Positions 5,325 to 8,968 of a DNA stretch of 64,000 nucleotides are shown here, in pieces. Both the position numbers and the translations under genes were made by a program. A model generated the notes under the pieces. The model saw only the letters and a program-made list of their open reading frames with translations, was not told the DNA's origin and searched no databases. The stretch is taken from the NCBI RefSeq assembly GCF_000020945.1, contig NC_011295.1, forward strand, positions 372,001 to 436,000. The letters run 5' to 3'. Origin of the DNA: Coprothermobacter proteolyticus DSM 5265 (GTDB taxonomy: Bacteria; Coprothermobacterota; Coprothermobacteria; Coprothermobacterales; Coprothermobacteraceae). Position 1 is the stretch's first letter, and each line of letters opens with the position of its first letter.

Positions 5325-5864
5325 ATGTGGATTGCAATTGTAGTTCTGGTCTTAGTACTCATCGTCATTTGGATTTATAACCGTTTGATCCAGCTGAAAA
5401 ACCGCGTACAGAATGCTTGGCATCAAATTGAGGTCCAACTTCAGAGAAGGCATGACTTAATACCTAACTTGGTAGAAACGGTAAAAGGTTACGCGTCACA
5501 CGAAAAGGAAACCTTCGAAAGGGTGGTCGCTGCCAGAAACAAGGCCATGTCAGCTAACACACCAGGGGAAATGGGCAGGGCTGAGGGCGAATTAACGCAA
5601 GCTTTGGGACGCCTTTTTGCTCTGGCAGAAAGTTACCCTGAACTAAAAGCCAACGAGAATTTTATACGACTTCAAGAAGAACTTACCAGCACTGAAAATA
5701 AGGTTGCCTATGCCAGGCAAGCTTATAACGATACCGTCATGATGTTTAACCAAACCATACAAATGTTCCCTTACAATTTGCTGGCAGGCCCAATGAATTT
5801 GAAGCCTGCTGAATACTTCGAAGCTGAAGAAGAAGCTCAAAATGTCCCCAAAGTGGAGTTTTAG
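5325..5864 (+). CDS. lemA: LemA family protein
   Basis: A 179-residue LemA protein, close to the usual length. A single N-terminal membrane anchor (about residues 2-19) is followed by the family hallmark RRHDLIPNLVETVKGYASHE and a long helical bundle containing ENKVAYARQAYNDTVMMFN. LemA proteins are membrane-anchored with a helical domain; their biochemical role is not settled, though many lie beside TPM or HtpX genes. No such partner is here: the gene is monocistronic, ending in a strong terminator at 5928. The Shine-Dalgarno sequence AAGGAGGTGAT starts at 5309, well spaced before ATG 5325. A TATTAT box at 5298 may be part of the promoter, but it lies too close to the SD to be certain. Confidence 0.93.
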   Translation: MWIAIVVLVLVLIVIWIYNRLIQLKNRVQNAWHQIEVQLQRRHDLIPNLVETVKGYASHEKETFERVVAARNKAMSANTPGEMGRAEGELTQALGRLFALAESYPELKANENFIRLQEELTSTENKVAYARQAYNDTVMMFNQTIQMFPYNLLAGPMNLKPAEYFEAEEEAQNVPKVEF

Positions 5865-5927
5865 CTCTTAACTGTTAACGAGCTGCCACTCTTCGTTCCC
5901 ATAGCATATTGCTTGTCATGTGCACAG

Positions 5928-5971
5928 GAAGAAGGGCACCTTCTCCTAAGGAAGGGGCCCTTCTTCTTTTT
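5928..5971 (+). terminator. Rho-independent terminator after lemA
   Basis: A perfect 10-bp stem, GAAGAAGGGC (5928-5937) with GCCCTTCTTC (5957-5966), has a 19-base loop and is followed directly by five T. It ends the lemA transcript and also separates it from the convergent glucosaminidase operon ending at 5984. Confidence 0.9.
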
Positions 5972-5983
5972 GCTGTTATTATG

Positions 5984-6433
5984 TTATTGAGCACGCCGCC
6001 TCAATGTGGCAGCCACGCTGCATACCTTTTGTGTCCATTGTGGATCACTTGCCCACAAGCTTCCCATGGCTTTAAGGGTGCCACCTTTGTAGTAAGCGCC
6101 TCCCGCTGTTGCGTACCTGGTTCTGATGTACTCTGCTACAAAGAAAATGCCTTCCTCATAGCTGATAAACACCTTCGCTCCTGATGGGTTTCTGTCATAT
6201 GCCTGAAAGCCGAACAAATTCTTTGTGCGTTTACTTAGTGCTGACTTGCCCCAACCACTTTCCAGCACTGCCACGCTGGTGAGTAGCAGCGCATTTACCT
6301 TGCTTAGTTTCTCAGCACAAACGAAGGTGGGAGCCAGTACTTCCATGGGTGTGCCTTTTAGCCCTTTTTGTAGTTCCAGCCAAGTAAGTTTGCTTTCGCT
6401 GAGAATCTTCGTATCAGGTGTCAATTCCCACAT
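5984..6433 (-). CDS. Glucosaminidase-domain cell-wall hydrolase (endolysin-like)
   Basis: A 149-residue protein made almost entirely of one glucosaminidase (LytD/FlgJ-C-like) domain. The catalytic region is visible as AVLESGWGKSALSKRTKNLFGF, with the glutamate of LESGWG as likely general acid, followed by FISYEEGIFFVAEYIRTR. Such enzymes cut the glycan strands of peptidoglycan. There is no signal peptide, no wall-binding repeat and no membrane segment, so release would need another protein, as with phage endolysins. The ATG at 6433 lies inside the end of the YvrJ gene (20-base overlap), with AAGGAGG about 11 bases upstream, so the two are translationally coupled. It is the last gene of the 7139-5984 operon. 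Confidence 0.87.
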   Translation of the reverse strand: MWELTPDTKILSESKLTWLELQKGLKGTPMEVLAPTFVCAEKLSKVNALLLTSVAVLESGWGKSALSKRTKNLFGFQAYDRNPSGAKVFISYEEGIFFVAEYIRTRYATAGGAYYKGGTLKAMGSLWASDPQWTQKVCSVAATLRRRAQ

Positions 6434-6587
6434 TGGTTCTCACCGCCTCCTTTAGTAGTGCAATTTCTTGTGAAAGATCTTTTATGGCAAGTAGCAGTTG
6501 CGCCAGTGTTTTGTTTATTTCCACGATAAAGTAGGCAGCCACTGCTATGGGGAAACCCAAGCTGCCAACTATTTGAATAATGTCCAT
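6414..6587 (-). CDS. yvrJ: YvrJ-family small membrane protein (holin-like topology)
   Basis: A 57-residue gene between DUF2922 and the hydrolase. It reads ATG at 6587 to TGA at 6414-6416, with AAGGAGGAAC as ribosome binding site. The protein has one membrane segment (GFPIAVAAYFIVEI, about residues 11-24) followed by an amphipathic charged helix (LLLAIKDLSQEIALLKEAV). This matches the YvrJ family, known from Bacillus and clostridia without a defined function. The same layout is seen in small bacteriocin-type holins (BhlA/UviB). Because the next, overlapping gene encodes a leaderless peptidoglycan hydrolase, a role in letting that enzyme out is an attractive inference, not shown. Confidence 0.8.
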   Translation of the reverse strand: MDIIQIVGSLGFPIAVAAYFIVEINKTLAQLLLAIKDLSQEIALLKEAVRTNVGIDT

Positions 6588-6693
6588 GTTGTATGTTGTT
6601 CCTCCTTTCTATCTTTGGTTGCGTTTCATCAGTAAAAGAAAAGAGCAGGAGGGAGCTAAAGCCCCCTCCTCCAAAAACGTTCTGAACCGCTCA

Positions 6694-6909
6694 TTAAGGC
6701 AGCATGTCCGTTGCGGTACGCTCCACGTAATTTGCATCAACAAGCTGAACGGGTTTTCCCAATTTTTCGCTCTTGATTACTCCTGTAACCACTATGGCGC
6801 TAGCAGCTTCTTGTATTTGCTGCGTTGTTAGATCCATTACTGGATCAGGGATTCTCAGAACCATGGTTTTGTCCATGTCTGTTTTAAAGCTCAGATTCAA
6901 TGTAACCAT
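6694..6909 (-). CDS. DUF2922 family small protein
   Basis: A protein of about 71 residues: TLNLSFKTDMDKTMVLRIPDP, then DLTTQQIQEAASAIVVTGVI, ending in a short strand ERTATDMLP. This is the layout of DUF2922: a beta-rich start resembling LxFKTxxGK, a helix VxxAMxxIIxxxVF and a final strand. The open frame allows ATGs at 6918, 6915 and 6909. AAGGAGGA is only one base before the first, and ten before 6909, which also gives the usual family N-terminus, so 6909 is chosen. Neighbours are DUF1659 upstream and YvrJ downstream, the usual companions of this family. Function unknown. Confidence 0.82.
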   Translation of the reverse strand: MVTLNLSFKTDMDKTMVLRIPDPVMDLTTQQIQEAASAIVVTGVIKSEKLGKPVQLVDANYVERTATDMLP

Positions 6910-6944
6910 GTGCATCATTCCTCCTTTCGTTTTTCATTGGTTAA

Positions 6945-7139
6945 TTAGGGTAGTAAGTTGTTTACTACCATGAGCTGCACACCAGTAGTTACTCTGGTGG
7001 TCAGTGTGCCCAGGGCATTGGTTAGCTCCATAATGCTGGTAGCCGTTGCCGTTGGGTCGATGTTGTTCAGTGACCAAAGGCGTTTCTTGCCTTCACTGTT
7101 CAACCACACAATCCTTACTGTTCTCTTCACTTCTTCCAT
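6945..7139 (-). CDS. DUF1659 family small protein
   Basis: A 64-residue protein: MEEVKRTVRIVWLNSEGKKR, then LWSLNNIDPTATATSIMELTNALGTL, then a terminal strand VQLMVVNNLLP. DUF1659 members have this shape: a strand pair with a 'G-x-x-x-R' turn, a 'NI-x-P-x-A' segment and a helix followed by a short strand. The start ATG 7139 is set by AGGAGGTGAGTTT 7-8 bases upstream; longer starts at 7187 are not supported by a ribosome site. It is first in the DUF1659-DUF2922-YvrJ-hydrolase operon. DUF1659 and DUF2922 have similar size and fold pattern and both end in LP, so they may be related and may co-assemble (inference). Confidence 0.8.
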   Translation of the reverse strand: MEEVKRTVRIVWLNSEGKKRLWSLNNIDPTATATSIMELTNALGTLTTRVTTGVQLMVVNNLLP

Positions 7140-7179
7140 TTCTAAACTCACCTCCTGTTCTTGTGAACATGGTAGTAGT

Positions 7180-7210
7180 ATAGGCATACATTTGTATGCT
7201 ATCCTATAGC
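7180..7210. promoter_or_regulatory. Operator-like overlapping dyads between the DUF1659 operon and the XRE gene
   Basis: GCATAC (7184-7189) and GTATGC (7194-7199) form a perfect dyad around ATTT, extended outward by ATA and TAT. It overlaps a second dyad, GCTAT (7198-7202) with ATAGC (7206-7210). Both lie between the start of the leftward operon (7139) and the rightward XRE gene (7275), where an XRE repressor would be expected to bind. On the minus strand, a TTGGTC followed 19 bases later by TACAAA may be the promoter being covered. Confidence 0.55.
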
Positions 7211-7274
7211 CTGTAGACCAAGTTTTGTTATGTTAGTTTTCTGCCAAAAAGGCGAAAGGAGTAAGGAAAGGGCT

Positions 7275-7502
7275 ATGAAGCTGAACAGAAAAAGGCTAAT
7301 TCAAATGTGTGTAGAACGGGGTTGGAGTTTGTACCGCTTGGCCATTGAAGCTGGGGTAGACCCCAGCCATCTGTACCGTATCCTGAGTGGGAAAAGGGGA
7401 GCGGGAGTGAATACCGTCTTTAAGATTGCTCAGACCTTGGGATGTTCACCTTTGGATCTCATATACAATGAAGAACCTGCCGACCCAGATAACCGCAAGT
7501 GA
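7275..7502 (+). CDS. XRE-family helix-turn-helix regulator
   Basis: A 75-residue protein that is essentially one Cro/C1-type HTH domain. The recognition region reads SLYRLAIEAGVDPSHLYRILSGKRGAGVNTVFKIAQTLGCSPLDLI, as in SinR-like or phage repressors, with a short acidic tail. ATG 7275 follows AAAGGAGTAAGGAAAGGGCT, supporting this start over the longer frame from 7230. It is transcribed away from the DUF1659-DUF2922-YvrJ-hydrolase operon, and dyads at 7180-7210 lie between them, so it likely controls that operon and itself. A 10-bp inverted repeat spans its stop codon. Confidence 0.88.
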   Translation: MKLNRKRLIQMCVERGWSLYRLAIEAGVDPSHLYRILSGKRGAGVNTVFKIAQTLGCSPLDLIYNEEPADPDNRK

Positions 7503-7518
7503 CAGCATGGTCGGCAGG
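7476..7518. repeat. Perfect 10-bp inverted repeat spanning the XRE stop codon
   Basis: CCTGCCGACC (7476-7485) pairs with GGTCGGCAGG (7509-7518) across a 23-base loop that contains the TGA at 7500-7502. No T-run follows on either strand, so it is not a classical terminator. It could shield the mRNA 3' end or bind a protein between the convergent XRE and carboxyltransferase genes. Confidence 0.55.
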
Positions 7519-7531
7519 CCCCGCTCTAAAG

Positions 7532-8968
7532 TTAGTTCAGTCTTACTTTGTATGTGGTGTCCCCTATGTCCACTTCAAAGACTTTTTTCTTGAGCGGCAA
7601 GTCTTTGGATGTGAATTCAGGTTGTATCTCGCCTCTGAAGAACCTCAATGCCACATCAGGGAATATGGTGTAGGTGAGCACATCTTCTTCCTTCTTGAGT
7701 AAACCCATCTTCTTGAGTTCTTCACGACGTCGTTCTAACTCAGGCTCCAACAGGTCTGCTGGCCTTACTGTTATGATTTGGTCTTTCCAGTTCGGTCCAA
7801 ACACCTTTTGTAGCACGTCTTCATCAATGGGGGCAGGCGGTCTTCCGTACATGCCCCTTAGATAATCTTTAGTTTCCTTGGGTACAATCTTGTAACGTTC
7901 TCCACCTATTATGTTTGCCACCGATTGACTGCCCACAATCTGGCTCATGGGTGTGACTAAGGGTGGGTAGCCAAATTCTCTCCAGACTACTGGCACTTCT
8001 TGCAGTATTTGAGGTAGTTTATCCAGGGCATTCATGTTCCTAAGCTGGGATATCATGTTGCTCATCATTCCGCCTGGTATTTTGTATTCCAAAACCCCTG
8101 GGTCAGGCCTAAGCAGCGTCTCTTCATGTAGGTGGCTGTATTTGTTCCACACCACCATGAGCTTTTCCCTTATACGCATAAGCAGTTTTAGGTCATATCC
8201 TGTGTCCCACTGTGTGCTTTGTAAAGCGGCAACAATGGATTCCGTGGGCGGCTGGGAAACACCGTTAGCAAAGGGTGACATGCAAGTATCTAAAATATCA
8301 ATGCCTGCATGAATCGCTTCCATGTAAGCCATCTCTGTCATACCACTGCTGCAGTGGGAGTGTAGCTCCAGTGGTAGATCAATGCCAGCTGCCTTAATGC
8401 CCTCAATGATCTCTTTTGCCCGCCTTGGCGAAATAATACCTGCCATATCCTTAATCACCAAAGAATCACAACCCATTTCCGCTAGCTTCTTAAAGTTTTC
8501 CACGTAGTACTCTACTGTGTGAACAGGACTTTCCGTGTATGACAGAGCACCCTGGGCATGTCCACCGTATTTTTTCACAGCTTTAATGGGTACTTCCAAG
8601 TTTCTCAGGTCATTAAGCGCGTCAAAAATGCGAAAATTGTCAATGCCGTTTTTACGTGACAGACGGATGAACTCCTCTACTACATCGTCAGGAAAGTTGC
8701 GGTAAGCAACCAAGTTCATGCCTCTTAGTAGCATTTGCAGGGGTGTCTTCTTAAACTTTTCTCGAAGAACCTGCAGTCTTTGCCAGGGGTCTTCATTGAG
8801 GTACCTCATAGCAGCGTCAAAGGTTGCTCCACCCCACACTTCCACAGAGAAGAATCCCACCTCATCCATGAGAGGAGCAACGTCCAGCATGTCTTCTGTG
8901 CGCAATCTAGTAGCGAGCAGAGACTGGTGGCCGTCTCTCAATGTTTGATCGTGCAGTTGTATTCCCAT
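7532..8968 (-). CDS. Carboxyltransferase subunit (oxaloacetate decarboxylase alpha / pyruvate carboxylase B / transcarboxylase 5S type)
   Basis: A 478-residue protein with an HMGL-like TIM barrel followed by the conserved PYC_OADA carboxyltransferase domain. Visible motifs are DQTLRDGHQSLLATR, VEVWGGATFDAAMRYL, VIKDMAGIISP (with the lysine carboxylated in the family), ELHSHCSSGMTEMAY (metal-binding HxH) and PGGMMSNMISQL. It ends without a C-terminal biotinyl domain (no MKM motif), so biotin must be on a separate protein, as in the 5S subunit of methylmalonyl-CoA carboxyltransferase or two-part pyruvate carboxylases. No biotin carrier or membrane beta subunit is in the window, so the substrate cannot be fixed. 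GGAGGT precedes ATG 8968. A promoter overlapping a dyad lies at 9004-9040. Confidence 0.9.
   Translation of the reverse strand: MGIQLHDQTLRDGHQSLLATRLRTEDMLDVAPLMDEVGFFSVEVWGGATFDAAMRYLNEDPWQRLQVLREKFKKTPLQMLLRGMNLVAYRNFPDDVVEEFIRLSRKNGIDNFRIFDALNDLRNLEVPIKAVKKYGGHAQGALSYTESPVHTVEYYVENFKKLAEMGCDSLVIKDMAGIISPRRAKEIIEGIKAAGIDLPLELHSHCSSGMTEMAYMEAIHAGIDILDTCMSPFANGVSQPPTESIVAALQSTQWDTGYDLKLLMRIREKLMVVWNKYSHLHEETLLRPDPGVLEYKIPGGMMSNMISQLRNMNALDKLPQILQEVPVVWREFGYPPLVTPMSQIVGSQSVANIIGGERYKIVPKETKDYLRGMYGRPPAPIDEDVLQKVFGPNWKDQIITVRPADLLEPELERRREELKKMGLLKKEEDVLTYTIFPDVALRFFRGEIQPEFTSKDLPLKKKVFEVDIGDTTYKVRLN

Follow-up and report, generated by a model that had tools for sequence, protein, structure and literature searches.

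A five-gene cassette of Coprothermobacter proteolyticus DSM 5265, found in a 64,000-nucleotide stretch of its chromosome (the whole of which is hereafter called the window), probably encodes a non-phage release device in which a holin and an endolysin would let two small cytoplasmic proteins out of the cell. We put the odds on this reading, together with the full mechanism given in the Discussion, slightly above even (about 0.55). It builds on the order of the genes, a conserved operator-like site, an intrinsic terminator between the two small genes and those of the lysis type, homology of the small membrane protein to phage holins, the swapping of unrelated hydrolases beside that protein, and the absence of signal peptides.

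Results

Organization and conservation of the cassette

Four genes on the minus strand follow one another, from 5′ to 3′, in the order DUF1659, DUF2922, YvrJ and glucosaminidase, and an XRE-family gene diverges from them [Table 1]. All of the Pfam matches exceed their curated cut-offs, that of DUF1659 barely so, and genes, strands, order and interval are as a first-pass annotation made from the DNA alone had given them. Likely starts were chosen from conserved relatives and Shine-Dalgarno sites for DUF1659 (7139), DUF2922 (6909) and XRE (7275); the longest open reading frame begins at 6918 for DUF2922 and at 7230 for XRE, the ATG at 7275 of the latter being favored by relatives and kept in L004 and L005.

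Table 1 Features of the cassette (positions 5984-7502 of the window; four genes on the minus strand, XRE on the plus strand; all Pfam matches above curated cut-offs)
Feature	Position	Strand	Evidence
XRE-family (Cro/C1-type HTH) regulator	7275..7502	+	HTH_3 PF01381, 38.5 bits
Operator-like site	7179..7208	.	Inverted repeats and conservation; putative XRE binding
DUF1659 protein, 64 aa, candidate cargo	6945..7139	-	PF07872, 25.7 bits (cut-off 24.1); AF2 model
DUF2922 protein, 71 aa, candidate cargo	6694..6909	-	PF11148, 62.5 bits; AF2 model
Intrinsic terminator, DUF2922/YvrJ gap	6647..6670	-	10-pair stem, T-rich tail
YvrJ, 57 aa, candidate holin	6414..6587	-	PF12841, 52.7 bits; PHROG 4898
Glucosaminidase-type peptidoglycan hydrolase, 149 aa, candidate endolysin	5984..6433	-	PF01832, 56.9 bits (cut-off 30.2)

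Profile searches of the genome returned a single copy each of DUF1659, DUF2922 and YvrJ. The same five-gene order was found in four relatives (G001-G004), three of them congeners and one belonging to a sister genus, and the block is real and conserved in these five Coprothermobacter-type genomes. G005 represents another family within the order; in it YvrJ and the glucosaminidase adjoin and the DUF pair lies on a different contig. The immediate neighbors of the cassette, lemA and an oadA-like carboxylase gene, are both retained in relatives; the check for phage genes at this locus covered these immediate neighbors. DUF1659, DUF2922, YvrJ and the hydrolase are under purifying selection, with dN/dS values of 0.01-0.17 where dS was unsaturated and the ratio estimable; for XRE, dS was saturated.

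A conserved operator-like site beside the XRE gene

The spacer between DUF1659 and XRE contains a 30-bp near-palindrome, TATAGGCATACATTTGTATGCTATCCTATA, within which lies the dyad GCATACA-TT-TGTATGC (7184-7199). Dyads had been noticed here in the first-pass annotation, and they prove to be real: the motif is kept in all five genomes, representing two genera, while the spacer around it has diverged, above all in the sister genus. With up to three mismatches allowed, a scan of the C. proteolyticus genome found this one copy only. A site unique in the genome indicates a dedicated local regulator, and we infer that the motif is the binding site of XRE. A sigma-70 promoter scan of positions 5850-7600 gave no match. 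XRE as the general regulator of the cassette was rejected, the gene having been seen beside the cassette in the Coprothermobacter group only.

A terminator separates DUF2922 from YvrJ

The strong terminator that follows DUF2922 and precedes YvrJ, a feature absent from the first-pass annotation, has its counterpart in a hairpin at the same spot in all five Coprothermobacter-type genomes, in several of them with unrelated sequence. Over the wider set of loci, a terminator was present in the DUF2922-YvrJ gap of 55 out of 142 distinct ones, against 3.6 expected from dinucleotide shuffles, and the control gaps were near zero (3/201 for DUF1659-DUF2922 and 1/37 for YvrJ-hydrolase). In a slightly wider scan, the distance from terminator to YvrJ was 42 nt or less in 27 of 57 positive loci, counted to a YvrJ start placed by assumption 12 codons ahead of the conserved GFP motif; so short a distance leaves little space for a promoter ahead of YvrJ. 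The corresponding distance in the window is 59 nt. Judged by sequence and placement, the terminator is probably an attenuator; where the gap is long, such terminators may possibly do nothing but divide two units having promoters of their own.

YvrJ resembles phage holins

A single membrane helix is predicted in YvrJ, together with an amphipathic tail, in keeping with the holin-like layout first ascribed to it, and the protein matches the holin family PHROG 4898 (E 3.8e-7). In Eggerthella phage LE1-1 the lysozyme gene and a YvrJ-like gene overlap, and in Bacillus phage KonjoTrouble the YvrJ-like gp33, annotated as a holin and matching the YvrJ consensus at E 5e-8, is encoded immediately 5′ of the endolysin. 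By these matches, YvrJ is related in sequence to a phage holin family. With E values up to 1 admitted, a Pfam search of YvrJ returned nothing beyond its own family and a chance match to SlyX; BhlA, of the BhlA/UviB family, was not matched.

Locus L011 (G008; 60-1644), where a YvrJ-like gene comes after a protein-primed phage DNA polymerase-like gene, is probably a phage fragment. At a few loci (L078:4268-4675, L141 and L198; L023:1140-1427 and L025), unrelated membrane-protein-like genes replace or adjoin YvrJ; they matched no family and may be alternative holins. The assignment of the L078 stand-in to the LLH-type holins was dropped for want of a Pfam or NCBIfam match.

Unrelated hydrolases without signal peptides adjoin YvrJ

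The cassette hydrolase matches solved glucosaminidases (E 2e-16). Its gene shares 20 bp with that of YvrJ and its N-terminus is not hydrophobic, which agrees with the overlap and the missing signal peptide described at first. Across lineages, the hydrolases found beside YvrJ are unrelated to one another (glucosaminidase, GH108, Amidase_2, Amidase_3 and M15), and their genes often overlap YvrJ. None of 47 YvrJ-adjacent hydrolases, one of them a fragment, had a signal-peptide-like N-terminus in a hydropathy test, which is not a trained predictor, whereas several hydrolases of the same stretches that are not adjacent to YvrJ do have a hydrophobic N-terminus. Lacking a signal and adjoining the candidate holin gene, the cassette hydrolase fits the endolysin of a holin-lysin pair.

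The pairing of YvrJ with a hydrolase, noted in the first-pass annotation, holds throughout the Coprothermobacter group, in the phyla of G085 and G021 and on several plasmids. It does not hold as a rule in Bacillota, where 25 of 90 DUF2922 loci have a hydrolase on the same strand within 1.5 kb downstream, a proportion far above chance but still a minority.

The cassette might instead be an envelope-maintenance or stress unit that releases nothing, its hydrolase remodeling peptidoglycan, YvrJ acting as a small stress peptide of the membrane and the DUF pair serving as a cytoplasmic partner. We regard this as quite unlikely. It would suit a cassette that is chromosomal, widespread and mostly present in single copy, and it would also suit Bacillus subtilis, where a YvrJ family gene is under a special sigma factor, yvrJ belonging to the SigO-RsoA regulon with oxdC-yvrL (PMC8103513); the DUF1659 and DUF2922 models had no match in the B. 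subtilis control genome. A signal-less hydrolase must nevertheless have some exit, and hydrolases of differing bond specificity swapped beside YvrJ suit generic export better than specific remodeling.

DUF1659 and DUF2922 share a predicted fold

The similar shape seen earlier in the two small DUF proteins was recovered by profile comparison (P 8e-5, with an hhalign probability of only 61%) and by AF2, which predicted a beta-beta-alpha-beta fold for both (pLDDT 83 for DUF1659 and 89.5 for DUF2922). On profiles and models, they are distant paralogs with the same predicted fold. Foldseek against the PDB gave no fold match at E ≤ 0.001, comparison of their sequence profiles with solved structures gave nothing credible, and the pair has no recognizable toxin, enzyme or immunity partner. 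By inspection, neither protein has a signal peptide. The pair is retained where YvrJ or the hydrolase is missing and stands alone, without either, in many genomes; it is thus likely to be the core function, with holin and lysin as its exit route. A role as cargo would be consistent with the operon layout.

Distribution and neighbors in other genomes

An even sampling of the phylum of G059, which we take for Bacillota since G059 encodes Spo0A, gave 399 genomes, of which 205 carry DUF2922, mostly as a single copy; eight, seven and six copies occur in G322, G473 and G508, respectively. Of 54 genomes from the phylum of G021, 33 have the family, and plasmid copies were found in Paraclostridium, Parageobacillus, Peribacillus and Vagococcus. 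Searches of 50,697 phage records and two IMG/VR scans, made with short, selective patterns, yielded no DUF2922. These counts bear on a possible origin of the cassette as the remnant of a decaying prophage, which the YvrJ and lysin relatives of phages might suggest. That origin is highly improbable and was rejected on the grounds of purifying selection, the same genomic position in relatives, and the absence from the phage collections searched of a family carried by about every second sampled Bacillota genome.

DUF1659 lies directly upstream of DUF2922 in 75/80 named and 89/90 sampled loci, and YvrJ comes after DUF2922 in 60/80 named and 68/90 sampled Bacillota loci; since the 80 loci were fetched with one conserved peptide pattern and the 90 were picked by high DUF2922 score, these fractions are not random-sample values. 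With YvrJ in 68 of the 90 loci and a hydrolase in only 25, many loci have the device only in split, incomplete or unrecognized form.

Individual loci depart from this layout. On Vagococcus luciliae plasmid p11 (L056), three tandem small DUF1659/DUF2922-like proteins (1462-2525) precede DUF2922, and YvrJ, a tyrosine recombinase and an amidase come after it. L021 (oriented 986-1327) encodes a 113-residue protein without Pfam match between DUF1659 and DUF2922. On two plasmids and at one genomic locus (L054, L055 and L205), the next gene after the cassette encodes a Xer-type site-specific recombinase, and in some lineages a comF-family or recD2-type helicase gene comes directly after the DUF pair (L141:2340-3056, L178:3341-5560, L190, L191 and L195).

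Sigma-70-type proteins are encoded near 9 of the 90 Bacillota loci, and a second regulator-like family near 27. Aligned with ComK, this second family gave an hhalign probability of 96.9% over 149 columns; it had no direct Pfam or NCBIfam match and is thus a remote relative of ComK. It is homologous to ComK over the ComK domain and is a putative regulator. Genes of this ComK family occur in 52 of 72 genomes searched, usually as a single copy; a hand count from coordinates placed the gene no more than 4 kb from DUF2922 in 33 of these 52 sampled Bacillota genomes.

YvrJ and the hydrolase could also form a wall-opening or lysis module serving DNA release, sibling killing or the export of other folded proteins, the DUF pair then having a regulatory part in the cytoplasm, for instance as antiholins or assembly factors. 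We consider this unlikely. The ComK-family and sigma-type neighbors, and comF next door in some lineages, would fit a competence-like program, and no cargo-type domain is visible in either DUF protein. Against this stand the many genomes in which the pair occurs without YvrJ or hydrolase, and the position of the pair upstream of the terminator; from there it should be produced in larger amounts than the lysis genes, which would be unusual for a regulator of lysis.

Discussion

In the release mechanism that we propose, the DUF1659-DUF2922 transcript would be turned on by XRE in this cassette and, at many of the Bacillota copies, by an adjacent sigma-type or ComK-family protein, whereupon the two signal-less paralogous proteins would build up in the cytoplasm. 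The terminator 3′ of DUF2922 would let only part of the transcription continue into the YvrJ and hydrolase genes. YvrJ would enter the membrane and form a pore as a holin, by which the signal-less hydrolase would get to the wall, and the resulting wall opening, occurring in a subpopulation of cells or falling short of full lysis, would free the DUF pair.

The holin-lysin interpretation offered in the first-pass annotation is strengthened by the phage homologs, the swapping of hydrolases and the terminator. Its notion of controlled release accords with the conserved operator-like site and with the sigma-type and ComK-family neighbors elsewhere, XRE not being the usual regulator; the interpretation as a whole is supported in part. 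More tentatively, and with some doubt, the cassette might exemplify an undescribed, widespread non-phage release system, having a two-protein cargo of new small fold made in excess, a holin expressed via an attenuator, and a dedicated regulator, of the ComK family in many Bacillota.

DUF1659, DUF2922 and YvrJ hereby gain one testable hypothesis, and about half of the sampled Bacillota genomes carry DUF2922. If the hypothesis is true, holin-based release would be standard in many ordinary Gram-positive and thermophilic bacteria and not a rarity of toxins or prophages, and the ComK-family link would couple it to decision-making in cell subpopulations. We found no paper describing this system; in the portions of text available to us, papers naming DUF1659, DUF2922 or YvrJ concern other arrangements.

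Comparison with known systems

Phages LE1-1 and KonjoTrouble resemble the cassette in having a YvrJ homolog directly beside a lysin gene. Unlike the cassette, they are full virions with structural genes, and DUF1659 and DUF2922 were not found in them. Type 10 secretion and TcdE-type transport use a holin and a signal-less peptidoglycan hydrolase for non-phage protein release (PMC9527704), a combination that the cassette, judged by gene layout, would share; in contrast to those systems, it lacks a linked gene for a large toxin or chitinase.

By analogy, the cassette may work in the manner of the UviA/UviB/Bcn5 loci or of colicin release, no membership in either family being claimed. Among the systems compared, the Clostridium loci and type 10 secretion come nearest to it in logic. 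The UviA/UviB/Bcn5/endolysin bacteriocin loci of Clostridium comprise a regulator, a signal-less product, a small single-helix holin and an endolysin (PMC9527704), and the same kinds of gene, with a candidate holin and endolysin, are grouped here, likewise on Firmicutes chromosomes and plasmids; in the cassette, however, two small beta-alpha proteins take the place of Bcn5, the candidate holin is YvrJ and the regulator is XRE. In the colicin E2 operon, product genes are followed by a terminator to be overcome and by a lysis gene (PMC4353708). Unlike that operon, the cassette has no immunity gene or colicin domain, only five Pfam families having been found in it, and its release genes encode a holin-type protein and a hydrolase in place of the lysis lipoprotein. 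The order of product, terminator and lysis genes is the same in both, a likeness of layout only, and on this analogy the cassette probably releases the DUF pair.
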